The position numbers and the translations under genes were made by a program. The notes beneath the pieces are model-generated. The model made no database searches, was not told where the DNA came from, and saw only the letters and a list, made by a program, of their open reading frames with translations. 40,330 bases of DNA. Origin: an uncultured Geobacter sp. Lineage in GTDB: Bacteria; Desulfobacterota; Desulfuromonadia; Geobacterales; DSM-12255. Shown one piece after another: positions 1,010 through 17,916 of the stretch. The stretch covers positions 1-40,330 of the forward strand of contig CALMBF010000044.1 of assembly GCA_937860145.1 (NCBI GenBank), written 5' to 3'. Numbering within the stretch: position 1 is the first letter of the stretch; each line of letters begins with the position of its first letter.

Positions 1010-1044
1010 TTCTGTACTGCGCCGGACTAGTCCGGACTTATGAT

Positions 1045-1112
1045 TGGTGCGTGGAATGGACTCGAACCATCACGAAGTTGCCCCCGCCAGCCCCTCAAGC
1101 TGGTGCGTCTAC
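1045..1112 (-). pseudogene. partial tRNA-Leu(GAG), island attachment-site copy
   Basis: This is a copy of the anticodon arm, variable arm, T arm and CCA end of the tRNA-Leu at 10789-10875. Two blocks are identical to the intact gene: 28 bp over the D-loop edge and anticodon arm (1085-1112, matching 10830-10857), and 23 bp over the T arm (1052-1074, matching 10797-10819). The variable arm between them differs, one G of the acceptor stem is missing, and the 5' quarter does not match. It cannot fold as a full tRNA. It is best read as the far attachment site left when the island entered the tRNA gene. Confidence 0.8.
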
Positions 1113-1214
1113 AACACGTCAGCAAAGGGCCGCCACATCGGGCTTTACACCAAATTAAAAGAACGAAGATAAAGCAGACTCCTGAAATCTTATACACCAA
1201 AAAGGGACTAATTT

Positions 1215-1238
1215 GTATCCCAAATTGTATCCCAAATT
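1215..1238. repeat. tandem 12-bp repeat GTATCCCAAATT x2
   Basis: Two exact head-to-tail copies of GTATCCCAAATT lie inside the left end of the island. The same GTATCCCA core occurs at 10721-10728, next to the integrase start at the other end. Matching short repeats at both ends suggest arm-type binding sites for the integrase or its directionality factor. Confidence 0.5.
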
Positions 1239-1318
1239 CTCAGATACCCTCAAAAATACCGTAAAAAAAGTTAAGTGAGAATTTCAATAAGTTACGTGTT
1301 CTGTGTGAATCCAGCTTT

Positions 1319-1335
1319 TGGACTCGAACCATCAC
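1319..1335. repeat. third copy of the tRNA-Leu T-arm sequence
   Basis: The 17 bp TGGACTCGAACCATCAC matches the T arm of tRNA-Leu exactly, in the same orientation as 1057-1073 and 10802-10818. The flanks do not continue the tRNA match. It lies 8 bp beyond the stop of the gene at 1344-1751 and may be the true recombination core or a remnant of an earlier insertion. Confidence 0.65.
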
Positions 1336-1343
1336 AGAGCGCC

Positions 1344-1751
1344 CTACTCTGTTCCCATCTCTGCCGGTGATAGGTCATAAATTAGGGATGCAAAGAAACC
1401 ATCACCGTATGAGTACAATTTTACTAGATTTAGCTTGCTCAATTGATGAATTGCTTTCATGAAATCGGAGTTAATCAATCCCGATGACTTTTCTACTTTC
1501 TTTAACTCAATTTCCGTATTGAGTTTTTGACCAGTTGCAGCCGTTGTGGGCATGGTACTGGTCATTGCCCAAATCATAATGTAGACCTTACAGCAATCAG
1601 GACTCATTTTCTTCCAGCTGCTATTGGAACTCTTCGGGGTTGCAGGGAGCACCATTCTGCGGAGACTCTTTGCCCACAGCAAATCAATGCTGTCAAGCTG
1701 CTCCTGTTTCTTTTCCGCCTCTGTCTTTGCTTTTACTATCGTAACCGCCAT
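1344..1751 (-). CDS. hypothetical protein at the far end of the island
   Basis: This is a 135-residue protein that I do not recognise. The start chosen is the ATG at 1751, which has a strong GGGGGAG site 5 nt upstream. A longer frame opens at 1820 but would overlap the recombinase gene by 50 bp. The first 25 residues are charged (VKAKTEAEKKQEQ) and likely helical. The last 55 residues (SGLINSDFMKAIHQL, then a beta-like LVKLYSYGDGFFASLIY) could form a small winged-helix-like unit, which is only a guess. There is no signal peptide or membrane segment. The gene follows the serine recombinase by 19 bp on the same strand, so the two are probably co-transcribed. It ends 8 bp from the T-arm repeat at the island edge. 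Confidence 0.6.
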   Translation of the reverse strand: MAVTIVKAKTEAEKKQEQLDSIDLLWAKSLRRMVLPATPKSSNSSWKKMSPDCCKVYIMIWAMTSTMPTTAATGQKLNTEIELKKVEKSSGLINSDFMKAIHQLSKLNLVKLYSYGDGFFASLIYDLSPAEMGTE

Positions 1752-1770
1752 AATGCTCCCCCTTTTGATT

Positions 1771-2427
1771 TTATCTTGCCAACACGTTTTTAACTGCTGT
1801 AGGGGTCCAAACGCCACCACGTGCAGTTTTTACCCCCAGTTTATCCAGTTCAGCAGCTACTCCCCTTAAGCTATTGCCCTGAGCAATCAAGGCTTCTATG
1901 GTAGGTTTCACCCTTGCTGCAAAATCATCTGCGTTCTGCTGCCGTACCTGAACCCCCTTTGCACTGGCATCTTTTACCAGTTCAGGTTTCAGGTTGTTTG
2001 TTCCCAGTTTTACTCCTCTTGCCTTTGCTGCTGCAAGCCCTGCCTTTGTCCGTGATGCTATCATTTCTCTTTCACGCTGAGCAAGTGAACCATAGATATT
2101 GATAGTGAAGGAGTCACACCCCGGCAGGTCCGACACTACGAAGTCAACACGGGACTTTTGCAGGGAGGTTATGAAATGAAGGTCACGGCTGAGACGGTCT
2201 AGCTTTCCTACCAGCAGACGGCCACCAACAAGGGAAGCGTGTTTCATGGCGTTCATGAGTTCAGGACGGCTATCATGCTTCCCGCTCTCTATTTCTGTGT
2301 ACTCTGCTACAATCTCCCCGCCGTTGATTGCTACGAAGTCAGTTACCATTTTTTTCTGTGCTTCCAAACCAAGACCGGACTTGCCTTGCTTTTGGGTAGA
2401 TACTCTGTAGTAAGCAACATATTTCAT
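1771..2427 (-). CDS. small serine recombinase (resolvase/invertase family)
   Basis: This 218-residue site-specific DNA recombinase has an N-terminal resolvase domain (about 1-140). The nucleophile serine is in YRVSTQ (Ser10), and the helix signature LVGKLDRLSRD and the AQREREMIASRTKAGLAAAKARG dimer-helix region follow. A C-terminal helix-turn-helix of the recombinase type covers about residues 170-218 (GNSLRGVAAELDKLG, then a TAVKNVL recognition helix). Length and layout fit Tn3-type resolvases and invertases rather than the large serine integrases. GGGAGG lies 7 nt before the ATG, and a near-perfect sigma-70 promoter lies upstream. Its neighbour to the right is a type III restriction-modification pair flanked by 16-bp inverted repeats, which makes it a candidate agent for inverting that segment. 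That link is inference. Confidence 0.9.
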   Translation of the reverse strand: MKYVAYYRVSTQKQGKSGLGLEAQKKMVTDFVAINGGEIVAEYTEIESGKHDSRPELMNAMKHASLVGGRLLVGKLDRLSRDLHFITSLQKSRVDFVVSDLPGCDSFTINIYGSLAQREREMIASRTKAGLAAAKARGVKLGTNNLKPELVKDASAKGVQVRQQNADDFAARVKPTIEALIAQGNSLRGVAAELDKLGVKTARGGVWTPTAVKNVLAR

Positions 2428-2471
2428 GGTAACAACCTCCCTGTATAATTACCTGTTGAACATTTAAGGTT

Positions 2472-2499
2472 ATTATACACTAGGTTTATGGTTTGTCAA
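2472..2499 (-). promoter_or_regulatory. sigma-70 promoter of the serine recombinase gene
   Basis: On the minus strand TTGACA (2494-2499) and TATAAT (2472-2477) are both exact consensus boxes, separated by 16 bp. They lie about 45 bp upstream of the recombinase start, so strong constitutive transcription is expected unless a repressor binds nearby. Confidence 0.8.
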
Positions 2500-2508
2500 T
2501 AAAGTATT

Positions 2509-2524
2509 TTGCAATCAATTGCAC
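2509..2524. repeat. 16-bp inverted repeat flanking mod-res, left copy
   Basis: TTGCAATCAATTGCAC occurs here, and its exact reverse complement occurs at 7033-7048. Each copy is itself two TGCAAT half-sites around an asymmetric central CA pair. That is the architecture of a small serine recombinase crossover site, but it also fits a dimeric operator. This copy sits between the divergent promoters of the recombinase and of mod. Confidence 0.7.
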
Positions 2525-2547
2525 TGAACCTCCCTCCCCCCTTTCGA

Positions 2548-2576
2548 TTGCAATTAATATCAATCAATCGTAATAT
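2548..2576 (+). promoter_or_regulatory. candidate promoter of mod-res
   Basis: TTGCAA (2548-2553) and TAATAT (2571-2576) are 17 bp apart, starting 31 bp before the mod ATG. The -10 match is imperfect. The -35 box itself contains the TTGCAAT word that is repeated in the nearby inverted repeat, so one protein could bind both. Confidence 0.45.
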
Positions 2577-2606
2577 CCCCCTTTGATTTTAATTGAAGGG
2601 GATACA

Positions 2607-4331
2607 ATGCCAACGCTTGACTGGATAGGTAAGAAAGCCGTTGTAGAACACCACAAACAAGTTCCGTTTCATCTTCTCCGTTGCAATGATGCTCTTTCGG
2701 TGGGGGAACCCGGAAGCGGTAACTTACTTGTGCAGGGTGATAATCTCTTAGCATTGAAAGCCCTGCTTCCCTACTATGCCGGACAGGTCAAGTGCATCTA
2801 CATAGACCCACCCTATAATACCGGAAATGAAGGGTGGGTTTATAACGATAACGTGAATAGTCCTGAAATGCGGGAGTGGCTTGGGAAGACTGTAGGAAAG
2901 GAGATAGAAGACCTTTCACGTCATGATAAGTGGCTGTGCATGATGTATCCACGCCTTGCCTTGCTCCGTGACTTCCTCCGGGATGACGGGGTAATCATGA
3001 TAAGCATTGATGACAATGAGCTTGCAAACCTTACTGTATTGGTCAATGAAATTTTTGGAACAAACAACGTCCTTGCAACTTTAGTATGGGAAAAAGGGAA
3101 GAAGGGGGATGCTAAATTTTTTTCTGTATCCCATGAATACATTGTTGTTGCTGCAAAGAACAAAGCGCACCTTATCGCTAATAACACTAAATGGAGAAGG
3201 AGTAAGCCGGGAGTTGACCAAGTTCTTACCTATTATAATGACTTGCGTGAACAGCACAAAGGGGACCATGACGCCATAAGAAAGGATATTATGGCTTGGT
3301 ATCGCTCCCTTCCTGCAAAACATCCCGCAAAGGCACATAAGCATTACAACTGTTCAGACGATAGAGGGCTATATTTTCCTGACAACTTTCACGGTCCCGA
3401 CGATGGAAGGGAAAACCGGCCACGTTACGACATTATTCACCCAATTACTGGCCAGCCCGTTAAGAAGCCTTCGACTGGCTGGCGGTGGGAAGAGGCAACA
3501 ACCCTGCAAGCTCTTGCAGAAGTTCCCCCAAGAATCCATTTCGGCCCAACTCACAACACAATCCCATGTCGCAAGAGCTATTTGTTTGAAATCGACAAAG
3601 AACCATTCCCTAGCGTCTTTTACAAAGACGGAAGAGCAGCAACCCTAGAGGTTGAACAGATGCTTGGACCCGGCAGTTTTGCCTTCCCAAAGGATTCAGA
3701 GGTGCTTGCAGACCTAATAGGCATGGTTACAGAGAAGAACGATACTATTCTTGACAGCTTTGGAGGCAGTGGAACAACAGGACATGCCGTTTTGAAGCTG
3801 AACCATGCAGATAGAGGGCAAAGAAAATTCATCCTTGTAGAGATGGACAAGGAAATATGCCAGACCAGAACAAGAGAAAGGCTCGCAAGCGTCATTAATG
3901 GCTATACCGTTGGCAAGAAAGAAAGCAAGTCCCTTGTTCCTGCTCTTGGGGGGGGCTTTCGCTTCTGTGAACTTGGTGAACCGCTCTTCAGTTCAGCAGG
4001 GACAATAGAGGATGATACCGTATCATTCAAAGACCTTGCCCACCATGTATTTTTCATTGCCACGGGTGAACCTCTATCCCATGAATCAGACCTTAAAACG
4101 CCCTTTCTAGGTGTATCTAAATGCGTTGCCGTGTACCTGCTCTATAACGGCATATTGGGTGACAAGTCAGTGAACGGTGGAAACATCCTTACCCGTGAAA
4201 TCCTGGCTTCACTCCCTCCCCACGACGGAACCCGGATTATCTACGGCAACGGTTGCAGGATAGGACCGGAAAGGCTCCGGCGTGAAAACATCATTTTTAG
4301 ACAAATCCCCTATGAAGTGAGGGTTTCATAA
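2607..4331 (+). CDS. mod: type III restriction-modification DNA N6-adenine methyltransferase (Mod)
   Basis: This 574-residue methyltransferase subunit moves a methyl group from S-adenosylmethionine to an adenine and also supplies sequence recognition for the Mod-Res complex. The catalytic motif IV, DPPYNTG, is at residues 67-73, and the SAM-binding motif FGGSGTTG is at 385-392. The catalytic-before-SAM order marks the beta class. The stretch of about 190-320 between them is the likely target-recognition domain. The start chosen is the ATG at 2607, with GAAGGGG 6 nt upstream; an in-frame TTG at 2583 is less likely. The stop overlaps the res start as TAATG, so the two are translationally coupled and made in balance. 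Both motifs are intact and no repeat tract suggesting phase variation is visible. An active enzyme is expected, with unknown recognition sequence. Confidence 0.95.
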   Translation: MPTLDWIGKKAVVEHHKQVPFHLLRCNDALSVGEPGSGNLLVQGDNLLALKALLPYYAGQVKCIYIDPPYNTGNEGWVYNDNVNSPEMREWLGKTVGKEIEDLSRHDKWLCMMYPRLALLRDFLRDDGVIMISIDDNELANLTVLVNEIFGTNNVLATLVWEKGKKGDAKFFSVSHEYIVVAAKNKAHLIANNTKWRRSKPGVDQVLTYYNDLREQHKGDHDAIRKDIMAWYRSLPAKHPAKAHKHYNCSDDRGLYFPDNFHGPDDGRENRPRYDIIHPITGQPVKKPSTGWRWEEATTLQALAEVPPRIHFGPTHNTIPCRKSYLFEIDKEPFPSVFYKDGRAATLEVEQMLGPGSFAFPKDSEVLADLIGMVTEKNDTILDSFGGSGTTGHAVLKLNHADRGQRKFILVEMDKEICQTRTRERLASVINGYTVGKKESKSLVPALGGGFRFCELGEPLFSSAGTIEDDTVSFKDLAHHVFFIATGEPLSHESDLKTPFLGVSKCVAVYLLYNGILGDKSVNGGNILTREILASLPPHDGTRIIYGNGCRIGPERLRRENIIFRQIPYEVRVS

Positions 4332-6943
4332 TGCTTGCTCCGAAAGAATATCAAACCCGTACCCTTGAAACCCTCCGGCAATACTTTGCTACCTGTCAGC
4401 GGGTAGGAGATGCAGACACCGCCTTTTACACTATGACAAAGCAGGTGTATGGAACCGGGATACCCTACAGGGAAGTTAAAGAGCTTCCCGGCCTCCCCTA
4501 TGTCTGTTTGCGTATCCCCACGGGTGGAGGTAAGACCCTTGTTGCCTGTCACTCCATAGTGATTGCGGCAAATGACCTACTCCATGCTGATAATCCGGTT
4601 GTTCTCTGGCTTGTTCCTTCAAACGCTATCATGGAACAAACCATTAACGCCCTAAAGGACAGAACCCACCCTTACCGGATGGCTCTTGATGAAACCTTGT
4701 CCTCCGTGTCGGTCCTTTCCATTCAAGAAGCCCTATACGTTACCCGCCCTACCCTTGCCACAGGAACAACGGTGATTGTCTCCACCATTCAGGCGTTCCG
4801 GGTAGATGCAACTGATGGGCGGAAGGTGTATGAACCTTCCGGGGCACTCATGGACCATTTCAACGGTCTTGACTCTGCCTTGATTGAATCCTTGGAGAAG
4901 TACGAAGACGGAAAGCCTGTGCAATCAGTTGCAAACCTTCTCCGTATTCACCGCCCCATTGTTATTGTTGATGAAGCCCACAATGCCCGGACAACCCTTT
5001 CCTTTGAAACCCTAGCCCGGTTCAATCCTTCCTGCATTATCGAGTTCACCGCCACTCCTGACACGGAAAACAGCCCTAGCAACGTGCTTCACTCTGTATC
5101 AGCGGCGGAACTGAAAGCGGATAACATGATTAAGCTACCTATCCGCCTTGAAACCCGCCCCAACTGGAAAGAGCTTGTAGGGGATGCAATCACCCTCCGC
5201 AAGAATCTTGAAGCCTTGGCAATAGCAGAGAAGAGGGCAACGGGTGAATATATCCGCCCTATCATCCTGCTACAGGCACAACCCAAGAGCCAAACACAAG
5301 AGACTTTGACGGTTGAAGTGGTTGAACAATGTCTATTGGAAGATTTCTCTATTCCGGCTGAAGAGATACGACGGGCAACGGGAACAGACAAGGGGCTTGA
5401 CGGGCTAGACCTGTCAGACCCTACCTGCCAAGTCCGGTATATCATAACCGTGCAAGCCCTCCGTGAAGGGTGGGATTGTCCGTTTGCCTATATTCTCTGT
5501 TCCGTCGCTGAAATGAGGTCTTCAACTGCTATCGAACAGATACTAGGGCGGATAATGAGGCTTCCCAAGGCACAACGGAAGCAGCATGAAGGGCTTAACA
5601 TGTCCTATGCCTTTGCTGCTTCCCGTGAGTTTATCGAGGCGGCAAACGCCCTTGAAAACGCTCTTGTTGAAAACGGGTTTAACCGGCAAGAGGCAAAAGA
5701 CCTTATCGGCAAGATTCCAGAAAAGCCGCAAGGTGGGCTTGAACTGCTTTGGACAAAAGCGACTGAGACAGTTGCAGAGGTCCCCAAACTGGAAAGCCTA
5801 CCGGCTGAGATAGCAAGCAAGGTGACGTATGATGAACAGAAGCAGGAGATAACCTTCAACGGGGTAATGGAAGAGCAAGAGAAGTTCGCCCTTCAGCACT
5901 GCTTTTCCACCCCGGAAGCAAAGGCCACCATTGAACGGGTTTTCAGGAAGTCCCGTGGGCTTGTTGCTGAACAGCCGAAATCACCCGCTGAACGTGGGGA
6001 AGCTTTCTCTATCCCCCTGCTATCCATCAAGCAAGGCAATCTATTTGAAGTCTTTGAACAAACCCACTTCCTTGAAATGCCGTGGGAACTTGCCAAGTGT
6101 GACCCCACCTTGACAGCAGCAGAATATGCAGAGAAACGTTTTGACGGCAACGTGGTTGAAATCGACTTGAACGACAAGGGGAAGGTTGCTCAAAAGTTCA
6201 TTTCAAATCTGCAAGACCAAATGACATTAATTGCACAGAACCAGACAGAGACGGTTGCAAATCTGGTTCACTGGCTTGATAGAACCATACCCCACCCGGA
6301 CATTCCACCGGCAGAGACAGGCCCCTTTTTAACGGCTCTAATTCACCGCCTGATAGACGAACGGGGCTTTACCCTTAGTCAGCTATTCCGGGACAAGTAC
6401 ACCCTGAGACAGAAGGTTACAGAGAAGATAGAGCAACACAGACAGCAAGCCCACGTCCGGGCATATCAGATGCTTTTACTTCCTGAGAGTGCAACACCCC
6501 TTGTAGTAACGCCGGAAGTCTGCTTTTCCTTCCCGCAACACGATTACCCATATAATACCCGTTATGACGGAAGTTACCCCTTCCAGAAGCACTATTATAA
6601 CGAAGTCGGAAACCTGAAGGACACCGGGGAAGAGTTCGATTGTGCAAAGTTCCTTGATACCTTGCCTGAAGTTAAGTTTTGGGTAAGGAACATTGAACGG
6701 CGGGAACGTCATTCATTCTGGCTACAGACAACCACAGACAGGTTCTACCCTGATTTTGTGTGTATGCTTAATGACGGGCGGTTTCTGGTTGTCGAGTACA
6801 AAGGGGAAAACCTCTGGACTAACGATGATTCAAAAGAAAAACGAACCCTTGGGGAATTGTGGGAGAAGCGAAGCGGCGGGAACTGCCTTTTTATCATGCC
6901 GAAGGGTAAGGATTTAGGAGCAATAGCGGCAAAGATACGCTAG
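4331..6943 (+). CDS. res: type III restriction enzyme, helicase-nuclease subunit (Res)
   Basis: This 870-residue ATP-dependent restriction subunit pairs with Mod. It has a superfamily 2 helicase core: Walker A PTGGGKT (63-69), DEAH box VDEAHN (213-218), motif III TATP (240-243) and motif VI QILGRIMR (403-410). The preceding REGWDCPF motif (379-385) is characteristic of type III Res proteins. A C-terminal PD-(D/E)xK nuclease is visible as PD at 807-808 and EYK at 822-824. All key residues are present. In the family, the complex cleaves DNA after two unmethylated sites meet through diffusion along DNA. Its ATG overlaps the mod stop by one base. It is followed by a convergent gene after 132 bp. 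It probably serves as anti-phage cargo of the island and as a maintenance module. Confidence 0.95.
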   Translation: MLAPKEYQTRTLETLRQYFATCQRVGDADTAFYTMTKQVYGTGIPYREVKELPGLPYVCLRIPTGGGKTLVACHSIVIAANDLLHADNPVVLWLVPSNAIMEQTINALKDRTHPYRMALDETLSSVSVLSIQEALYVTRPTLATGTTVIVSTIQAFRVDATDGRKVYEPSGALMDHFNGLDSALIESLEKYEDGKPVQSVANLLRIHRPIVIVDEAHNARTTLSFETLARFNPSCIIEFTATPDTENSPSNVLHSVSAAELKADNMIKLPIRLETRPNWKELVGDAITLRKNLEALAIAEKRATGEYIRPIILLQAQPKSQTQETLTVEVVEQCLLEDFSIPAEEIRRATGTDKGLDGLDLSDPTCQVRYIITVQALREGWDCPFAYILCSVAEMRSSTAIEQILGRIMRLPKAQRKQHEGLNMSYAFAASREFIEAANALENALVENGFNRQEAKDLIGKIPEKPQGGLELLWTKATETVAEVPKLESLPAEIASKVTYDEQKQEITFNGVMEEQEKFALQHCFSTPEAKATIERVFRKSRGLVAEQPKSPAERGEAFSIPLLSIKQGNLFEVFEQTHFLEMPWELAKCDPTLTAAEYAEKRFDGNVVEIDLNDKGKVAQKFISNLQDQMTLIAQNQTETVANLVHWLDRTIPHPDIPPAETGPFLTALIHRLIDERGFTLSQLFRDKYTLRQKVTEKIEQHRQQAHVRAYQMLLLPESATPLVVTPEVCFSFPQHDYPYNTRYDGSYPFQKHYYNEVGNLKDTGEEFDCAKFLDTLPEVKFWVRNIERRERHSFWLQTTTDRFYPDFVCMLNDGRFLVVEYKGENLWTNDDSKEKRTLGELWEKRSGGNCLFIMPKGKDLGAIAAKIR

Positions 6944-7032
6944 GGGCCCCCAGAAAAATTTTTCCCGGTGAAAAAGCCCCTATTTTCAGTGGGGGGGGCA
7001 TGAAATATCGCCGTGATTCGTGCACTCCCCCT

Positions 7033-7048
7033 GTGCAATTGATTGCAA
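7033..7048. repeat. 16-bp inverted repeat flanking mod-res, right copy
   Basis: This is the exact reverse complement of 2509-2524. It sits in the 132-bp gap between the end of res and the end of the convergent gene at 7076-7720, so mod, its promoter and res all lie between the two copies. Confidence 0.7.
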
Positions 7049-7075
7049 CCGAGTGAATATTCACTGTGTTCAAGT

Positions 7076-7720
7076 TTACCAACCAAGCGATTGCCTCATG
7101 TTCTCTATGAAGTTGTCAGGGTCTTCAGCGTACAAATCCCTGAAGATACTAAAGAACATGTCTGGCAGACAGAATTCTAACTGCTGTTGCTCCCTCTCTG
7201 CTATCTTCCTGAAGTCAGCAGCATAATGGTTCAGCAGTCCACACTTGAAAGCAATATCCCCATAATTCTTTAACAGCCGGTTAAGCAGTGAGGTTTGCTT
7301 GTCTACCATAGGGGACAAGACCCCGCTTTCAACTTCCTGCAAACGTACCTGCCGTAACCTCTCCATCTGCATTTCAATCAATGTTGACTGTTCGCTGATT
7401 ACGTTCACGTTCCGGCGGACTTGCTCGGTAAGCCTTGCTATCACATAGGGATTCATGAGCTGTTCTAAGGGGATTTTGGCAGCCCTGAAGCGTTCTAGCT
7501 GGTGGGCAAGGGTAAGTTCCGTTACATCAAGGCATTGCTCCCAATCCTGCTGAATCGTCTTTGCCACTGCATAGGGGCTGTGAGCCTTGAGCATGGAAAG
7601 GACAATTTCATACTGTTCTGGGGGCAAGTTGTTGATACGTTCAAAGGGGTCGTGATTGACGGCCTTAGATGCTTTCTGTGCTTTTTCGATACCACTGCCC
7701 TGTGGTTTGTCTTGGCTCAT
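7076..7720 (-). CDS. hypothetical helical protein, related to the next gene upstream
   Basis: This 214-residue protein of unknown function appears mostly alpha-helical. Residues 14-60 carry a motif shared with the 61-residue protein encoded just upstream: ASKAVN, PF-RI, LPPE and HSPY in the same order and spacing. After it, AVAKTIQQDWEQCLDVTELTLAHQ looks like a helix-turn-helix. Residues 95-140 (VISEQSTLIEMQMERLRQVR) are a likely coiled coil. There is no signal peptide or membrane segment. GAGG lies 5-6 nt before the ATG, and the upstream gene ends 8 bp away, so they form one operon with the winged-helix gene. An HTH followed by a helical oligomerisation region is how phage small terminase subunits are built, which would fit a satellite, but I see no specific family match and hold this weakly. 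Confidence 0.7.
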   Translation of the reverse strand: MSQDKPQGSGIEKAQKASKAVNHDPFERINNLPPEQYEIVLSMLKAHSPYAVAKTIQQDWEQCLDVTELTLAHQLERFRAAKIPLEQLMNPYVIARLTEQVRRNVNVISEQSTLIEMQMERLRQVRLQEVESGVLSPMVDKQTSLLNRLLKNYGDIAFKCGLLNHYAADFRKIAEREQQQLEFCLPDMFFSIFRDLYAEDPDNFIENMRQSLGW

Positions 7721-7728
7721 AATATCCT

Positions 7729-7914
7729 CTAAGCGGTGGGACTTACTGATAATCCAAGAATTCGGTACACCATATAAGGGGAATGTTCCCTTAGTAGGGC
7801 TGTAAGCAGTTTTTGTTCTTCCGGCGGTAATTTTTTGATGATTCGTGCAAAAGGACCATAATTAACAGCTTTGCTTGCTGCCTGTGTCTTTACGTCACGC
7901 TTCTTTTGCCTCAT
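7729..7914 (-). CDS. hypothetical 61-residue protein, short paralogue of its neighbour
   Basis: This small protein matches the first 60 residues of the product of 7076-7720: ASKAVN, then PF-RI, LPPE and HSPY. It then ends where the longer protein enters its putative helix-turn-helix. GGAGG lies 5 nt before the ATG, a strong site, and the coding frame is clean, so this looks like a real gene and not a decayed remnant. The DNA of the two copies has diverged strongly, so the duplication is old. It could compete with or cap the longer partner through the shared domain; this is a guess. It lies 19 bp after the winged-helix gene. Confidence 0.65.
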   Translation of the reverse strand: MRQKKRDVKTQAASKAVNYGPFARIIKKLPPEEQKLLTALLREHSPYMVYRILGLSVSPTA

Positions 7915-7933
7915 GACTTCCTCCGACGGCGAG

Positions 7934-9175
7934 TCAACTATTAAGAGGTTGCATTACCGTTTCCTTATAAAAATGGTAAGCAACGGTATGATGCGTACAA
8001 ATTAATTGAACCGATGGAAATATTGGTAAACCCTTAACATCAAGCTGTTCCTGAAGCAATGTACGAAACTTCCCCCAGTTCAGCAAACACGCCTTCAACA
8101 CATCAACTGGATTGTTTTTCTTGAATTTGCCAATGAATTCATTAACCCTATGTGTTTCATCACTACTGAAAACAACAGCATCAGGATTAAAATCATAATT
8201 GGTACTCATGATTTCACGCCATGCATTGAGCATTTCTTGGTATTTAATGTCTTTATCGCTAATTTTATCGGGTTTGTTGGTTGCAAATGAATCAATGTCA
8301 ACATTTGAAGTAGATTTTGAATCGCATTTAGTCAGGTAGAAATTTACTGCTGATTCTATGTATTTTGTTAAGTACGGCAAATCTGGCCTGAATGGACTTT
8401 TGAAAGCAGAGGTATTCTTTTCAGTATAGATAATGAATTCATTCCATTTACTAATAATAGTCCTTACTACACTTATCAATTCGTAAGGTTGTGTTTTTTC
8501 AGATAGGTATTTAATGATACCCTTTTCTTTTGAGGTGAATGGGTTTACGTACTTTATATCGGTATATTTATTTAGTATTTCTGTTTTCCACATAATCTCA
8601 AATGCATTTACGTTAAAGCTAGGTTTAGTATTTAGTTTCTCTCCTATCGAAACAGAAAGGCTTTTATGTGTTTCAGATTGCGTTGATTCATCAACGCTAG
8701 TATTTTCTTGTTTTGTTTTTTGGTTTGTTGTTTTTGGTTTGTATTCTTTGTGTAAATTGATTTTACAACCCGTTGTCAAATTATCTTGCAAGCTACTGTC
8801 ATTATTTTTAACACTGGTAGTCATTTTGTTTGACATGCTGTCAAGTGACTTAACATTGGCACTTTCTGAGTTTGATGTATTATTGCAGTTAATTGCAGTA
8901 TAATTTTTCGAGTTTTCAGTGTATTTGTCAGCCTTGAACCTGTAGATATGCGTTGTGTTAGGTCTACGTGTAATTTCTAACCACCCTTTATTTTCCAGAC
9001 TATCTACGACAGACATAACAGTTTGCCTACACAATTTGCTTTCACGAACAAGTGTGTTTTGACTTACATAACTTTCATCATCATAACGAATATGATAACG
9101 AAGTATAAACAACAATGCAATTTCACTTGTTTTTAAATTAGGGTCACTAATTATAGTTTTATCCTGAATGTACAT
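7934..9175 (-). CDS. winged-helix DNA-binding protein, possible island replication initiator
   Basis: This 413-residue protein has an N-terminal winged helix of the helix_36 type (about 10-75: SEIALLFILRYHIRYDDESYVSQNTLVRESKLCRQTVMSVV, written here only as the order helix, YVSQNTL, recognition helix, then the wing NKGWLEITRR). An Asn/Ser/Thr/Lys-rich linker (about 80-185) follows, then a C-terminal region without a motif I can name. Proteins with this N-terminal domain are common in phage and plasmid replication modules and as island regulators. The start at 9175 is supported by AGGGAGG 4 nt upstream. The gene is markedly AT-rich compared with everything around it, including mod-res, which suggests a separate origin. 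It lies 21 bp after the AlpA-like gene. The replication role is an inference from position. Confidence 0.7.
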   Translation of the reverse strand: MYIQDKTIISDPNLKTSEIALLFILRYHIRYDDESYVSQNTLVRESKLCRQTVMSVVDSLENKGWLEITRRPNTTHIYRFKADKYTENSKNYTAINCNNTSNSESANVKSLDSMSNKMTTSVKNNDSSLQDNLTTGCKINLHKEYKPKTTNQKTKQENTSVDESTQSETHKSLSVSIGEKLNTKPSFNVNAFEIMWKTEILNKYTDIKYVNPFTSKEKGIIKYLSEKTQPYELISVVRTIISKWNEFIIYTEKNTSAFKSPFRPDLPYLTKYIESAVNFYLTKCDSKSTSNVDIDSFATNKPDKISDKDIKYQEMLNAWREIMSTNYDFNPDAVVFSSDETHRVNEFIGKFKKNNPVDVLKACLLNWGKFRTLLQEQLDVKGLPIFPSVQLICTHHTVAYHFYKETVMQPLNS

Positions 9176-9196
9176 AAGACCTCCCTGTAGCAATGT

Positions 9197-9367
9197 TCAC
9201 TTTTGATATTTGCTTATGAATGCAATCACTTCGTCGTAGTTCCACATGTTACAACGATTTGACAGCTTTATTGGTTTGGGAAATTTCCCTAAATTTACCC
9301 AAGCCCACAATGTACACCTACAAATTGGTAATAGTTTTAATACATCTTTTGTCTTGATGAGATTCAT
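9197..9367 (-). CDS. AlpA-like excisionase/regulator
   Basis: This 56-residue protein was found by reading the gap between the integrase and the winged-helix gene. It begins MNLIKTKDVLKLLPICRCT, followed by LWAWVNLGKFPKPIKL and a C-terminal WNYDEVIAFI helix. This is the compact MerR-like winged helix of the AlpA/phage excisionase family: a helix-turn-helix at 5-25, the wing G-FPKPIKL at 27-35, and a closing helix at 42-54. AlpA proteins control integrase expression or act as directionality factors in P4-like islands and phage satellites. The upstream sequence has only a weak GGTGAAA site. It sits 21 bp before the winged-helix gene and after the integrase terminator, so it likely has its own promoter. 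Confidence 0.8.
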   Translation of the reverse strand: MNLIKTKDVLKLLPICRCTLWAWVNLGKFPKPIKLSNRCNMWNYDEVIAFISKYQK

Positions 9368-9376
9368 GTTTCACCA

Positions 9377-9430
9377 TAAAAAAAGCCCTAAAACACAAAG
9401 ATATTCCGCACTCCCTTGCGTTTTAAGGCT
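9377..9430 (-). terminator. intrinsic terminator after the integrase gene
   Basis: On the minus strand an 11-bp stem with one G-T pair (AGCCTTAAAAC/GTTTTAGGGCT) encloses a 32-base loop and ends in seven T. It separates integrase transcription from the alpA-led operon. The long loop lowers certainty a little. Confidence 0.65.
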
Positions 9431-9511
9431 TACTGCTATTAAGTTTATGCTACTATATCAACATACATTTACTATGTCAAACATTTTTAATTAATCATAA
9501 TAGGGTATATA

Positions 9512-10690
9512 TTATGTGTAAATTATTTTCTCTATTGCTGCAATCAATGTTTCAGGTAAATATTTTTTGCCATACCTATTAAACGTTATACCTCCTTGCT
9601 CATGTCCTAATAAATTTGCAACAACAGATTCGATTATCCCATTTTGTTTCAATGAATCTGCAACTGTATGTCGGAATGAGTGAAAAACCTTAAGCGGGTC
9701 TTGAGTAACATACTGTCTATTAAAGTAAATTGACCACCAATTGCCGAACTGCTTTCCCCAAGTAGTTTTCCACTGTCTAAACCCCCATAAATTACCAGTG
9801 CAATTAACTCCATCGACAAATTCCAGAAAACCAACTTCTTTCAATTTCGGGTGAATTGGTACTAGCCTATCACTTGATTTCGTCTTTAGTGATTTCCCTG
9901 CATTATCGTTTACATCGAAGCACCATATTCCGTTTACCTCCTTAATGTCTTCAACGTGTAGCTGGCAGATTTCTTCACGTCTCATGCCTGAATACATTGC
10001 TATCATCGGTATCCAGAACTTGAACGGCTCTTCCCCATCCTTTGCGGGTAGATGCTGGACAATCCGCCGTATGTCTTCAAGGTCATATGCTTTACGCTCT
10101 TCATCAGCTCTTTTCTTAAGGTCAAGCTGCAAACTTTCGGCGGGGTTTCGTGGAATATAGTTATGCTTGACTCCCCAGCGAAGAACTGACGAAAGAAGAG
10201 CCATATACTTGTTGACCGTCCTTACCGAAAGACGTTCAAGCAACTTCTCCCTACCAGCAATAAAGTCTGCCCTGTCGTACTCTTCAGCGGGACGATTACT
10301 CAAAACCTTGACTAGACCCGCAAACTGTCCGTTCAACTCTCCGGGAGTCCTACCAACCCAACTTGGGGACTTCTCGGCATAGTAGAGGTCATAAAGGTCG
10401 CTTAGACGTGTGGACTTCTTCTTAGTAGGTTTTGACCGCTTACAGGTGTACGCAGTTACTATGGTCTCTTCTTGGTCTTCAGTGAGGATTCCGGCACGTA
10501 ACAGGGTGAAGGAGGACTTAACCCTTGATGCCATATTCTCGGCAAGGATTTTTGCTTCTGGGGGGTGTTTGGTTTTAAGAGATTTGCGGATGAACTTTGA
10601 CTTGAACTTGTCTTGCAGGTCGGCAGGAACCCGTATCATAAAATACGGATGACCGTTACGGAATGTAACGTGGGGAGCTTGAAAAAACAT
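9512..10690 (-). CDS. tyrosine-type site-specific integrase of the island
   Basis: This 392-residue DNA recombinase catalyses entry and exit of the island at tRNA-Leu. A short N-terminal domain contains RNGHPYFMIRVPADLQ, as in DUF6538-type integrases. A SAM-like core-binding domain covers roughly 95-190, and the catalytic domain follows. All catalytic positions are visible: Arg237 in SGMRREE, Lys near 269 in LKTKSSD, His337 and Arg340 in HSFRH, His363 in LLGHEQ and the nucleophile Tyr373 in FNRYGKK. It therefore looks intact. The start chosen is the ATG at 10690 with GGAGAG upstream; an ATG at 10729 has no such site and would add 13 residues. The gene starts about 100 bp from the tRNA. Inverted repeats span its start and probably include integrase sites or an operator. 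Confidence 0.92.
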   Translation of the reverse strand: MFFQAPHVTFRNGHPYFMIRVPADLQDKFKSKFIRKSLKTKHPPEAKILAENMASRVKSSFTLLRAGILTEDQEETIVTAYTCKRSKPTKKKSTRLSDLYDLYYAEKSPSWVGRTPGELNGQFAGLVKVLSNRPAEEYDRADFIAGREKLLERLSVRTVNKYMALLSSVLRWGVKHNYIPRNPAESLQLDLKKRADEERKAYDLEDIRRIVQHLPAKDGEEPFKFWIPMIAMYSGMRREEICQLHVEDIKEVNGIWCFDVNDNAGKSLKTKSSDRLVPIHPKLKEVGFLEFVDGVNCTGNLWGFRQWKTTWGKQFGNWWSIYFNRQYVTQDPLKVFHSFRHTVADSLKQNGIIESVVANLLGHEQGGITFNRYGKKYLPETLIAAIEKIIYT

Positions 10691-10749
10691 AGGGCAGACT
10701 CTCCGACTGATACCCAAATGGTATCCCATGTCATTGAAGTCTGCCCTAT
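10689..10749. repeat. nested inverted repeats at the integrase start
   Basis: The outer arms are 12 bp and perfect (ATAGGGCAGACT at 10689-10700, AGTCTGCCCTAT at 10738-10749). The inner arms are GATACC (10709-10714) and GGTATC (10720-10725) around CAAAT. The inner part shares GTATCCCA with the tandem repeat at 1215-1238. The left outer arm covers the integrase ATG, so protein binding or an RNA hairpin here would affect expression. Confidence 0.6.
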
Positions 10750-10788
10750 CGTTTTCTAACCCCTTGATTTTAAAGAGGTTTTTTTAAT

Positions 10789-10875
10789 TGGTGCGGTGGA
10801 ATGGACTCGAACCATCACGCCCTTGCGAGCGCCAGCCCCTCAAGCTGGTGCGTCTACCAATTCCGCCACCACCGC
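10789..10875 (-). tRNA. tRNA-Leu (anticodon GAG)
   Basis: This is a complete 87-nt class II tRNA. The acceptor stem is GCGGTGG/CCACCGC with discriminator A and an encoded CCA. The D arm contains GGTAGACGC. The anticodon stem CCAGC/GCTGG holds the loop TTGAGGG with anticodon GAG, followed by a long variable arm and the T arm with GGTTCGAGTCC. It reads CUC and CUU codons. It follows secG on the same strand by 84 bp and serves as the island attachment site, with its 3' part supplied by the island. Confidence 0.95.
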
Positions 10876-13455: not shown

Positions 13456-14553
<1,098 letters not shown>

Positions 14554-14642
14554 TTATTAAGACTTTTATAACAATCTGCAAAACGCCCTAAAACGGTGAC
14601 CGGGAGCGGCACTGTCCCCCTCTCCTTCTCCCCCTTTTAATC

Positions 14643-14671
14643 TTGAACATAACCAGGAATTACGGTATAAA
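14643..14671 (+). promoter_or_regulatory. candidate promoter of the purine operon
   Basis: TTGAAC (14643-14648) and TATAAA (14666-14671) are exactly 17 bp apart, 84 bp upstream of the GTG of the first gene. It is divergent from the gap promoter. Confidence 0.6.
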
Positions 14672-14754
14672 AATTGTTTCTACCTGCCCTGATTTTCACT
14701 GTCACTAGGCACAGCAAACGGCAAGTAAAACGTAGTAAATCCCGGAGGAAAACG

Positions 14755-15525
14755 GTGAAGATCTCCCTGCTTGCAAGCGGCAGCAAAGGCAATGCCGTCT
14801 TTGTGGAGAGCGGAGATACCAGAGTGCTGATTGATGCCGGCCTTTCGGGGGTGGAAATCATCAAGCGACTGAACCGGATCGGTGTCGACGGAAAAGACCT
14901 GCATGCCATCCTGGTCAGTCATGATCACTCGGATCACACCAGGGGGGCCGGCACCCTGGGGAGGAAGCTTAAAATCCCTCTCCTGGTCAGTCATCCGACC
15001 CGTCAGGGGTGCGAAGGCCTCCTGAAGAAAACGGACGTCGTTGAATTCGAATCGGGCTCCTCATTCGTCTTCCGTGATCTGCTGATCGATCCCTTCCCCA
15101 TTACCCATGACGCCATAGACCCGGTCGGATTCACCATCGAAAGCAGAGAGGGACGGATCGGCTTTGCGACAGATCTCGGAATTGTTACCCGACTGGTGAC
15201 CGACAAGCTTGCGGGATGTCGCATGGTGGTGCTGGAAGCAAATCACGACGAGGAGATGCTGCTGAACGGCCCCTACCCCTGGCATCTGAAACAGCGGATC
15301 AAGTCAAAGCACGGCCATATTTCCAACAACGAATCGATGCAGCTGCTGGGTGACCTGCTCCACGAAGGACTGAAAGGGGTTCTGCTGGCCCACCTTTCCG
15401 AGGTTAACAACTCCCCCGACCTCCCCCACGCGGCGGCAACCGCCCTGCTGAGCAGCCAGACATGCTGTTCGCCGCGACTGGTAATCGGCAACCAGTATCA
15501 ACCGAGCGAAATGCTGGCCATATAA
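14755..15525 (+). CDS. metallo-beta-lactamase-fold hydrolase, WalJ/YycJ family
   Basis: This 256-residue protein of the metallo-beta-lactamase superfamily belongs, by its sequence, to the YycJ/WalJ branch, whose characterised members act on DNA ends as 5' exonucleases. The metal site HDHSDH is at 56-61, with a further His in SHPT, an Asp in FATDLG and a C-terminal His in LLAHLSEVNNSP. The branch-specific LEANHDEEML is present. The start is the GTG at 14755, preceded by GGAGG with 6 nt spacing. An upstream frame from 14674 is rich in Arg/Lys and lacks a ribosome site. It lies 20 bp before purB and is probably the first gene of its operon, though its role there is not obvious. Confidence 0.88.
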   Translation: MKISLLASGSKGNAVFVESGDTRVLIDAGLSGVEIIKRLNRIGVDGKDLHAILVSHDHSDHTRGAGTLGRKLKIPLLVSHPTRQGCEGLLKKTDVVEFESGSSFVFRDLLIDPFPITHDAIDPVGFTIESREGRIGFATDLGIVTRLVTDKLAGCRMVVLEANHDEEMLLNGPYPWHLKQRIKSKHGHISNNESMQLLGDLLHEGLKGVLLAHLSEVNNSPDLPHAAATALLSSQTCCSPRLVIGNQYQPSEMLAI

Positions 15526-15545: not shown

Positions 15546-16841
15546 ATGATTCCTCGCTACACCCGCCCCGACATGGCAAAAATCTGGGAACCGGAAAACC
15601 GCTTCCGCATCTGGCTGGAGATCGAGACCCTGGCATGTGAGGCCCAGGCGATCCTCGGCGTCATTCCGAAGGAGGCCGTTCCCGTTATTCGCGAGAAGGG
15701 GAATTTCAATATCGAGCGGATTGACGCCATCGAAGCGGAAGTAAAACACGACGTCATCGCGTTCCTCACGTCGGTCTCGGAGTTCGTCGGCCCCGAGGCA
15801 CGCTTCATTCACCAGGGGATGACATCCTCCGACGTCCTCGACACCTGCCTCTCCGTGCAGATGGTCCAGGCCGCTGACGAACTGCTGGCCGACCTGGACA
15901 TGCTCCTCGACTCGATCAAGGCTCGTGCCATGGAGCACCGGGAGACGGTCTGCATGGGTCGTTCCCACGGCATCCACGCCGAACCGGTCACCTTCGGCCT
16001 GAAGCTGGCCACATGGTATGCCGAAATGGACCGCAACCGCACCCGCCTCAGGACTGCCCGGGACAACATCGCCACCGGGGCGATCTCCGGCGCGGTTGGT
16101 ACCTTTGCCAATATCGACCCGTTCGTCGAAGAGTACGTCTGCGAGAAGATGGGGCTCAAACCCGAGCCGGTATCCACCCAGGTCATCCCCCGTGACCGCC
16201 ATGCCGAGTATTTCTGCACCCTCTCCATCATCGCCTCCTCCATGGAGCGGATCGCCATCGAGGTCCGTCACCTCCAGCGCACCGAGGTCCTGGAAGCCGA
16301 GGAGCAGTTCACCAAGGGGCAGAAAGGCTCCTCGGCGATGCCCCACAAACGCAACCCGATCCTCTCGGAAAACCTCACCGGCCAGGCCCGCTACGTCCGC
16401 TCATTCTGCATCCCGGCACTGGAGAACATCGCCCTCTGGCACGAGCGGGACATCTCCCACTCCTCGGTGGAGCGCTACATCGCCCCCGACGCAACCGTTG
16501 CCCTCGATTTCTCCCTCCGCCGGTTGAACGGCCTGGTCAGGAACCTGGTCGTCTACCCGGAAAACATGCTGAAGAACCTCAACCAGATGAAGGGCCTGGT
16601 CTTCTCCCAGAAGATTCTCCTCGACCTGACCCAGGCCGGCGTCTCCCGCGAAAATGCCTATCGCCTCGTACAACGTAACGCCATGAAAGTGTGGGAGGAA
16701 GGGAAGGATTTCCAGACCGAGCTCCTGGCTGACAGCGAAGTCGTCGGCGCCCTGGGTGAAGACAAGATTCGCGAATCATTCGACCTGAACTATCACCTGA
16801 AACACGTCAACACGATCTTCAAGAGGGTTTTCGGTGAATAG
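15546..16841 (+). CDS. purB: adenylosuccinate lyase
   Basis: This 431-residue cytoplasmic enzyme removes fumarate in two purine steps: SAICAR to AICAR, and adenylosuccinate to AMP. The fumarase/aspartase-family signature SSAMPHKRNP is near residues 262-271, TSSDVLDTC near 95, and GRSHG(I)HAEP near 140. The length matches the Bacillus type. AAGGAGATG lies just upstream of the ATG at 15546, in the 20-bp gap after the metallo-beta-lactamase-fold gene. The last 8 bp overlap the next gene, so translation of the channel gene probably depends on purB. Confidence 0.96.
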   Translation: MIPRYTRPDMAKIWEPENRFRIWLEIETLACEAQAILGVIPKEAVPVIREKGNFNIERIDAIEAEVKHDVIAFLTSVSEFVGPEARFIHQGMTSSDVLDTCLSVQMVQAADELLADLDMLLDSIKARAMEHRETVCMGRSHGIHAEPVTFGLKLATWYAEMDRNRTRLRTARDNIATGAISGAVGTFANIDPFVEEYVCEKMGLKPEPVSTQVIPRDRHAEYFCTLSIIASSMERIAIEVRHLQRTEVLEAEEQFTKGQKGSSAMPHKRNPILSENLTGQARYVRSFCIPALENIALWHERDISHSSVERYIAPDATVALDFSLRRLNGLVRNLVVYPENMLKNLNQMKGLVFSQKILLDLTQAGVSRENAYRLVQRNAMKVWEEGKDFQTELLADSEVVGALGEDKIRESFDLNYHLKHVNTIFKRVFGE

Positions 16842-17916
16842 CATCATCGATCTCTACCGCCTCCAGGAGAGCGACTCCCTCTACCTGTTCTGGACCAAGG
16901 AGCTGCTGGTGGCGCTCATCATCTTCGCCATCTTCTGGCTCCTGGCCAAGCTCCTCCGCTACATCCTCACCACCTGGGGGCCGAAGTTCACCTCGTTCAC
17001 CGCCACGGACCTGGATGACCGGATACTTGCCCGCATCACCCCGCCCGCCTCGCTCCTCGTCGTGTTCGGGGGGCTGTATCTTGCGATCAAGACACTCCCC
17101 CTCCCGGACAAGGCCCATGTCGCCGTCTCCGGCGCGGTGTTCATCATCACCATCGCCATCCTGACCAACATCGCCTGGCGGGCCATGGACGAGCTTCTCA
17201 GGTGGTACGCCGGAATCATGGCTGAAAACGGCCGTGGCGGACTTGATCGACAGCTGCTCCCCCTGGCCGAGAAACTCGGCACGATCTTCCTGGTCGGTAC
17301 GGCACTCATCATAGTTCTCAAGCATTTCAACTACGACATCCTCTCCCTCGTCACCGCCCTGGGGATCGGCTCCCTTGCCATCGGCATGGCGGCAAAGGAC
17401 ACCCTGGCGAACATGATCTCCGGTTTCACCCTGATGATCGACCGGCCGTTCCGCATCGGCGACCGGATCCAGCTCTCTGGCGGACAGTTGGGTGATGTCC
17501 AGGATATCGGCCTGCGCAGCACGAAGATCAAGACCATGGACAACCAGTTACTCATCATCCCCAACTCGGACCTGTGCAACACCATTCTCACCAACCAGGC
17601 ATTCCCCGACGTCCGCGCCAAGGGGCGCATCAACATCGGCGTTGCCTACGGCAGCGACGTGGAACAGGTCAAGGCCCTTCTGGTGACAACGGCACTGGAG
17701 GTCTCAGAGGTCCTGCGCGACCCGCCGCCGGAAGCGTACTTCACTGCATTCGGCGACAGCGCCCTGCAGATGGCCCTCTTCTTCTGGGTCGACGAATACA
17801 CCAAGGTTTTCCCGATAACGGACCGTATCAACACACTTCTGCTCAGGAGACTGGCGGAAAAGGGGATCACCATCCCCTACCCGACTACATCCGTCTACCT
17901 GCACAAGGAACATTGA
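16834..17916 (+). CDS. MscS-type mechanosensitive ion channel
   Basis: This 360-residue membrane channel of the MscS family opens under membrane tension and releases solutes. About four to five hydrophobic segments are visible (near 22-45, 68-85, 90-115, 147-170, 170-200). The last is the glycine/alanine-rich pore helix ALGIGSLAIGMAAKDTLAN. The MscS beta domain follows (RPFRIGDRIQL, then QDIGLRSTKIKTMDN, IPNSDL). It starts with GTG at 16834, overlapping purB by 8 bp, and its stop abuts the purL ATG with no gap. A membrane channel inside a purine operon is unusual; shared expression may link nucleotide synthesis to osmotic growth, or the position may be accidental. Confidence 0.9.
   Translation: MNSIIDLYRLQESDSLYLFWTKELLVALIIFAIFWLLAKLLRYILTTWGPKFTSFTATDLDDRILARITPPASLLVVFGGLYLAIKTLPLPDKAHVAVSGAVFIITIAILTNIAWRAMDELLRWYAGIMAENGRGGLDRQLLPLAEKLGTIFLVGTALIIVLKHFNYDILSLVTALGIGSLAIGMAAKDTLANMISGFTLMIDRPFRIGDRIQLSGGQLGDVQDIGLRSTKIKTMDNQLLIIPNSDLCNTILTNQAFPDVRAKGRINIGVAYGSDVEQVKALLVTTALEVSEVLRDPPPEAYFTAFGDSALQMALFFWVDEYTKVFPITDRINTLLLRRLAEKGITIPYPTTSVYLHKEH

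Follow-up and report, generated by a model that had tools for sequence, protein, structure and literature searches.

The analysed window is a stretch of 40,330 nt of genomic DNA from an uncultured Geobacter sp. It contains an island of about 9.7 kb, bounded on one side by a tRNA-Leu(GAG) gene and on the other by a partial tRNA-Leu copy. The island carries a type III restriction-modification system together with a 214-amino-acid (214-aa) protein related to the small terminase subunits (TerS) of phages, and it is probably a phage satellite.

The island at tRNA-Leu(GAG)

The features of the island, listed from the tRNA gene towards the distal end, are the following.

10789-10875, minus strand: intact tRNA-Leu(GAG) gene, insertion site, left attachment site attL (ARAGORN and Rfam)
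10831-10857, minus strand: proximal copy of the 27-bp crossover core (exact pair with 1086-1112)
9512-10729, minus strand: tyrosine integrase, DUF6538 and Phage_integrase (family scans; 66% to the integrase of related island L012, 37% to that of L014)
9452-9480, minus strand: promoter-like site ahead of alpA, 11/12 (promoter scan)
9376-9440, minus strand: stem-loop with T-run, terminator or attenuator (minimum free energy -25, z -5.3)
9197-9367, minus strand: AlpA regulator/excisionase, 56 aa (PF05930, 1.7e-8; 39% to AlpA of L010)
7934-9193, minus strand: HTH_36 winged-helix, replication-initiator-like protein, 419 aa (best PHROG 'replication initiation O-like', 5e-8)
7729-7914, minus strand: 61-aa paralogue of the N-terminal, helix-turn-helix (HTH) part of the TerS-like protein (pairwise comparison; frames checked)
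7076-7720, minus strand: TerS-like protein, 214 aa (profile, hhalign and models)
7033-7048, no strand: palindrome copy, 27 nt beyond the terS stop (motif scan)
4331-6943, plus strand: type III restriction subunit Res, 870 aa (PADLOC, 4e-148)
2583-4331, plus strand: type III methyltransferase Mod, 582 aa (PADLOC, 6e-198)
2548-2563, no strand: degenerate palindrome copy, 2 mismatches (motif scan)
2509-2524, no strand: palindrome copy, inverted with respect to 7033-7048, 9 nt from the -35 box of the recombinase promoter (motif scan)
2472-2499, minus strand: promoter-like site of the serine recombinase, TTGACA-16-TATAAT, 12/12 (promoter scan)
1771-2427, minus strand: serine recombinase, 218 aa (family scans; 87% to L012, 58% to L011, 57% to L014)
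1344-1820, minus strand: uncertain open reading frame (ORF), 158 aa, very weak replication-initiation match (phrog_1408, E 0.0066)
1043-1112, minus strand: distal attachment (att) copy, attR, whose tRNA-Leu 3' half differs from that of the intact gene (repeat and tRNA comparison)

The direct repeat that bounds the island is 62 nt long with 90% identity (1051-1112 and 10796-10857), and its six mismatches all fall in the part encoding the variable arm. The true start of the distal copy lies near 1043, with one additional 1-nt gap in the acceptor arm. The exact 27-bp core (1086-1112 and 10831-10857) has just two copies in the 3.96-Mb genome. The island genes have a guanine-cytosine content of 33-50%, compared with 56-58% in the adjoining flank. 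The island is a discrete insertion at tRNA-Leu(GAG). The same tRNA was compared across relatives: all 28 genomes covered by the DNA search gave a match, and 14 of the 15 loci scanned had a readable gene. The variable arm of the distal copy is that of L117, L118 and L119, from one genus of the family; the variable arm of the intact gene, GCTCGCAAGGGC, differs from these and is that of G003 (L124), from another genus. Two halves that match different lineages are what an element arriving with a foreign 3' half should leave, and from the geometry of tRNA integration the distal 3' half is presumably the former one of the host.

Further observations were made around this tRNA site. In a genome of the same genus (L116, G001 C93) the contig ends one base beyond the tRNA-Leu crossover core, which hints at an insertion there too. 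Inside the island a third fragment of the tRNA-Leu T-arm, 17 nt long, is found at 1319-1335 and is perhaps left over from a previous insertion event. A fragment of a P4-type (DUF4102) integrase at 16-909, just outside the distal att copy, is cut near the contig end, and a second island probably sits in tandem at the same tRNA.

Nine island proteins were scanned against Pfam and PHROGs, and eight of the nine against NCBIfam; no capsid, tail, primase, relaxase or conjugation family was found. Mod and Res are adjacent, as expected of a type III restriction-modification system. The stem-loop lies between the promoter-like site at 9452-9480 and alpA; the promoter scan gave 20 sites of all grades against 14.4 expected. 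The sequence-only reading of this DNA had described, from the tRNA, the order integrase, terminator, AlpA-like regulator, winged-helix protein and two related helical proteins, which the scans and coordinates reproduce. It had made a type III restriction-modification system and a serine recombinase the remainder of the island, as PADLOC (Mod/Res) and the family scans (recombinase) also found, and had put the size at about 9.7 kb next to the tRNA, in agreement with the 62-nt tRNA-Leu repeat. Likewise, the lack of capsid, tail and conjugation genes that it reported agrees with the scans of the nine proteins. As gene order and boundaries are as it gave them, its observation holds.

The 214-aa protein, its phage homologues and related islands

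The two related proteins share 49% identity over 45 N-terminal residues (E 1e-10). We found that a distant match of the 214-aa protein in the phylum (L028, E 8.6e-16) is encoded directly upstream of a TerL-type (large terminase) gene, with a T4-type portal gene next to it. The neighbouring gene of L028 matched 360 phage records; among the matches listed, many are labelled (large) terminase and a few otherwise.

A controlled comparison was then made with 80 viral loci that were fetched by TerL alone (80 of 187 confirmed) and gave 3202 ORFs in six frames. The search profile was built from the six island proteins only. It matched 38 of the 3202 ORFs at E<=0.0024, with a best value of 1e-20, and the next ORF was at 0.22. 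All 38 lie upstream of TerL on its strand, 33 of them directly and 5 further off. Twenty column-shuffled profiles run against the same ORFs gave no match. Using hhalign, matches were obtained for four of five proteins encoded just upstream of TerL: L028 (2.6e-10) and the named phages KarBoss (2.1e-9), RHph_TM16 (3e-6) and RcZahn (3.1e-9). In a tree of 34 distinct TerS-like proteins (made from the matches at E<=1e-6 together with L028, KarBoss and TM16), a branch with a support of 98/97 separates the six island proteins from those of phages.

The deeper structure model of the 214-aa protein exhibited helices at residues 34-82 and a long helical hairpin at 91-159 (predicted local distance difference test 83.5, predicted template modelling score 0.44), its N-terminal part being HTH-like. 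An HTH-like N-terminal part followed by a long helical hairpin is the layout expected of TerS, but no structural match reached significance. With this model, Foldseek placed the G20c/P74-26 small terminase at ranks 2, 7, 8, 11, 18, 24 and 49, only with E-values of 0.87-5.9, in a list filled by helical hairpins of unrelated proteins; with the first, shallow model the best BFVD row was an uncharacterised phage protein (E 3.7e-3). Sequence searches of the PDB with the 214-aa protein returned chance matches only. Our confidence that the 214-aa protein is a TerS homologue is high but not full, and its binding to pac/cos DNA and to TerL is a prediction.

Of 277 genomes from the class Desulfuromonadia, 6 have homologues of the 214-aa protein, the genome of the window included; they belong to six genera, and the five other homologues also lie with integrases. 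In the phylum, 3 of 395 genomes were matched: the own one, an L014-type copy and a phage-like locus. An alignment query of the protein reached five loci in genome contigs and no viral contig; the protein as a single sequence gave no match in plasmids, named phages, viral contigs or genome contigs. When the TerS profile was broadened, a single further genome came up, with a borderline value (G229, 9.8e-4). The five related islands are the following.

L010: 4.1-kb contig, no tRNA found; P4-type integrase, AlpA and 214-aa protein
L011: tRNA-Phe, 49-bp repeat, 8.8 kb; type II methyltransferase, its neighbour a protein with no more than a weak resemblance to ApaLI
L012: beside tRNA-Leu(CAA), far end not delimited; HNH and type IV-like cargo
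L013: beside tRNA-Phe, far end not delimited, cut by the contig end
L014: transfer-messenger RNA (tmRNA), exact repeat of 347 bp with a spacing of 4.55 kb

The integrases across the islands are of at least three kinds. AlpA gave no match in L012 or L014. A serine recombinase is present in all four islands for which sequence beyond terS is covered (window, L011, L012 and L014), and the TerS-like protein is full-length in all five islands that contain the whole gene. The restriction operon is exchangeable cargo, being of type III in the window, a type II methyltransferase in L011 and HNH/type IV-like in L012. No structural or conjugation gene was found in the five related neighbourhoods, which were read by eye with ten of their proteins scanned. 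A conserved protein of 98-103 aa (66%) follows terS in L011 (10225-10521) and L012 (10331-10642); it has no match in the island of the window.

The palindrome and the promoter module

A second link between the islands and many phages of the TerS clade is a palindrome of 16 bp, TTGCAAT-NN-ATTGCAA. Two exact copies of the 16-mer TTGCAATCAATTGCAC are present in the genome of the window, in inverted orientation and flanking the restriction operon; L012 has one copy, in the corresponding position after terS. The motif was picked after the pair in the window had been seen, so that the copies of the window are not independent, and the half-sites TTGCAAT and ATTGCAA were scored with mismatches. With up to 2 mismatches, 18 copies were counted in the 41.2 kb of the six islands, 13 of them in the other five islands. 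A first-order Markov control for 41.2 kb gave a mean of 0.59 copies and a maximum of 2 in 100 runs, and the flanks of the island loci hold 3 copies in 68.3 kb. Past the terS stop, a copy lies at a distance of 27 nt in the window, 28 nt in L011, 40 nt in L012 and 105 nt in L014, and copies lie upstream of terS in L010 and L011. The central dinucleotides vary within and between islands. In host chromosomes the palindrome is rare: four of the six island-bearing genomes were searched and held 13 copies in total, 7 of them inside islands and one at an island edge.

In the 38 TerS-positive phage loci, 33 copies of the palindrome (up to 1 mismatch) were found, whereas none of 419 other permuted half-sites gave more than 3. 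Of 21 whole phage records, 15 contain it; the highest count is 48 copies, in a record of 93 kb, and V-YDF132 has 30. The reversed control pattern gave no copy in all 26 genomes and records, and none of five exact spellings of the palindrome was found in the literature texts searched. We had also considered the palindrome as a mark specific to TerS-bearing phages; this is weakened, since it occurs also in TerL loci without a TerS match.

The palindrome is sometimes coupled to a TTGACAAAC promoter, in islands and in phages. In three islands it lies 9 nt before the TTGACAAACC promoter of the serine recombinase. This coupling concerns 3 of 19 island copies, and 8 of 116 copies in phage loci precede TTGACA, against a background of 0.67%. 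All viral contigs were also scanned for the motif-promoter combination, blind to TerL and TerS, which gave 15 stretches on 13 contigs. Ten of these 13 contigs, a figure obtained without a control of random contigs, have one gene or more in common with the TerL-clade loci; two of the ten had belonged to the set before, and TerL lies in three of the stretches. A ParB_N-type gene, whose product is encoded beside phage terS (Pfam), accompanies the palindrome in 24 of 30 motif loci compared to 17 of 50 others (p 8e-5), and in 21 of 26 compared to 14 of 35 among the 61 of 80 loci with the upstream side covered (p 0.0018), with phylogeny uncontrolled in both comparisons.

The palindrome might instead be a recombination or regulatory site of the serine recombinase of the island and no phage signal, which we regard as unlikely. 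The 7-2-7 layout resembles the core sites of serine recombinases, the palindrome stands at the recombinase promoter in three islands, and the perfect inverted pair 2509-2524 / 7033-7048 around the operon is unique in the genome; the two 16-mers enclose the restriction operon in inverted orientation, so that the cargo could be flipped or swapped by the recombinase. Against such a role, the palindrome is dispersed through the phage records, its central dinucleotides differ within and between islands, and neither inverted nor direct repeats flank the cargo of L011 and L012, where no matching inverted pair of at least 9 nt was found.

The satellite reading and its alternatives

Taken together, these data make it likely that the island is a phage satellite. 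The sequence-only reading had proposed the same, and the proposal is strengthened here: phages encode members of the family of its two related helical proteins upstream of their large terminases, and the 16-bp palindrome that the islands share with those phages is a second link. It had also named relatives carrying conjugation or structural genes as evidence that would speak against a satellite, and the proteins read or scanned in the five related neighbourhoods hold none.

Upon infection by a phage of the TerS clade, AlpA and the integrase would excise the island, and the HTH_36 protein would start its replication. The island TerS would then dock on the phage TerL, so that island DNA is packaged. 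Before infection, the terminator-like stem between the promoter-like site and alpA may keep the island silent. Through the shared palindrome, a DNA-binding protein encoded by the phage can probably act on the island, for example to switch on the serine recombinase; candidate readers are a phage regulator, the ParB_N protein beside terS, or TerS itself. Against phages that are not helpers, the restriction operon would defend the host and thereby the island. Phages of the clade are large, many records being of 70-135 kb. The chances seem to us evenly divided for the wider proposal that an undescribed family of satellites in Desulfuromonadia parasitises this clade of large phages by imitating two of the marks that identify them, with a TerS lineage of its own and with the dispersed palindrome of the phage and its promoter module, a phage protein both activating the island and marking it for packaging.

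Most of what is known of satellites comes from a small number of well-studied groups of bacteria, and to tie them to helpers is an open problem for those of the environment. The TerS profile and the palindrome provide two sequence handles that tie a satellite to a possible helper without culture. If the shared cis-signal is true, a satellite can borrow the DNA address system of its helper. The island also suggests a route by which restriction systems may move between these bacteria. The literature on satellites of Geobacter or Desulfuromonads, and on satellites that have serine recombinases, was searched in listings, most subscription papers being outside, and no paper describing such islands was among those listed.

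Several results weigh against a helper-dependent satellite. Excision, induction and packaging by a helper are steps that we infer from sequence, and no primase was detected among the scanned island proteins. The TerL of the clade occurs in none of the 277 class genomes, so that there is no known resident helper, and the viral contigs are without assigned hosts. No match to the TerS profile was obtained for 42 of the 80 TerL loci, and some viral loci are near-copies, which inflates the counts. These 42 loci still hold 15 palindrome copies in 333 kb, the palindrome is absent from 6 of the 21 phage records, and 3 of the 13 motif-promoter contigs share nothing with the clade. Moreover, LV6 (0.13) and the annotated small terminase of TIN4 (0.031) did not match the island TerS, Foldseek gave no match at E<=0.001 with either model, and PHROGs gives no member of the family the name TerS, nor do the other libraries used name the family.

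Among known satellites, those of the P4-like type are recognised by Psu, Delta, Sid and the alpha primase, and none of these families was found in the scans of island proteins. The presence of AlpA does not make the island P4-like or a strict phage-inducible chromosomal island (PICI). In gene content it is closest to the terS-carrying PICIs, and it is not classed as one because the primase of the PICI replication module was not found. The available parts of PMC6092414 describe for PICIs an att site that prophages never use, a replication module with a primase homologue and an initiator, an alpA regulator in Gram-negatives, terS in some, including some of the alpA-bearing Gram-negative elements, and induction and packaging by a helper phage. 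Of the PICI criteria, the island shows an integrase with a specific att site, an alpA regulator, a terS homologue and no phage structural genes; its replication module consists of the HTH_36 initiator-like protein, with no primase family in Pfam, PHROGs or NCBIfam. It thus resembles terS PICIs (Staphylococcus aureus pathogenicity islands and some Gram-negative PICIs) in att site, integrase, regulator, replication gene, own TerS and lack of structural genes, and differs from them in the primase, in the serine recombinase beyond terS and in a TerS family that the libraries used do not name. Accessory genes can sit between terS and the element end in PICIs, according to the available part of PMC13376191. 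EcCICFT073, a Gram-negative PICI, has int, alpA and a replication gene as the island does; unlike it, EcCICFT073 has no TerS, carries the cosN of its inducing phage and has pri-rep, as far as the accessible text of PMC6092414 goes.

The phage-inducible chromosomal minimalist islands (PICMI), satellites of virulent Vibrio phages, are also small, with int, alpA and in some cases restriction-modification cargo, and their known helper is virulent; their model requires a primase and fis, whereas the island lies at tRNA-Leu and showed no primase in the scans, and the available portions of PMC10803314 do not mention a terminase. The I23, I44 and I55 islands share a tyrosine integrase, AlpA, restriction-modification cargo and satellite-like transfer, with a tmRNA site, and I55 is moved by a jumbo phage. 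They are longer, with a shared region of about 18 kb, and the sections available of PMC12595487 mention neither terminase nor terS. Cluster O mycobacteriophages have more than 30 copies per genome of a 17-bp 7-3-7 palindrome, some near promoters, together with a ParB-like gene; its sequence differs from that of the island palindrome, and no satellite is mentioned in the accessible part of PMC4351075.

The island could also be a defence island that is not itself packaged, its TerS-like protein acting as a decoy, with the phage terminase being poisoned or its site titrated. This we consider improbable. The defence cargo of the window, L011 and L012, the HTH-only paralogue beside the full protein and the lack of a helper seen in the class would fit such a role; the integrase, AlpA, the replication-initiator-like gene and the tRNA halves of two lineages point rather to a mobile element, and the TerS-like protein has been kept full-length in the five islands with the whole gene. 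Decoy and packaging roles are compatible with each other. The 61-aa paralogue itself could be a remnant or a decoy.

A prophage remnant that lost its structural genes would explain an integrase together with a terminase-type gene, and is very improbable: a similar small gene set occurs at different sites in six genera, the island TerS stand apart from the phage ones in the tree, the TerL of the clade is missing from the 277 class genomes, and the scanned window proteins include no structural remnant. Hardly credible, finally, is an integrative element that derives from a plasmid or is mobilizable and spreads through conjugation, which the replication-initiator-like gene and the resolvase-like recombinase might suggest, since the scanned proteins include no relaxase or conjugation family and the TerS-like protein (single sequence, tblastn) is unmatched in 72,556 plasmid records. 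The replication protein (HTH_36) gave no match to named phages.

Three minor observations concern the compared loci. The phage portal frame of L028 (13025-16669) contains intein-splicing and HNH matches. In L011, a third tRNA-Phe att copy bounds a tandem insertion of 1.7 kb (15649-17420) with a Fic-like ORF, and a HicA-HicB-like ORF pair follows the serine recombinase (14163-14965), both read by eye.

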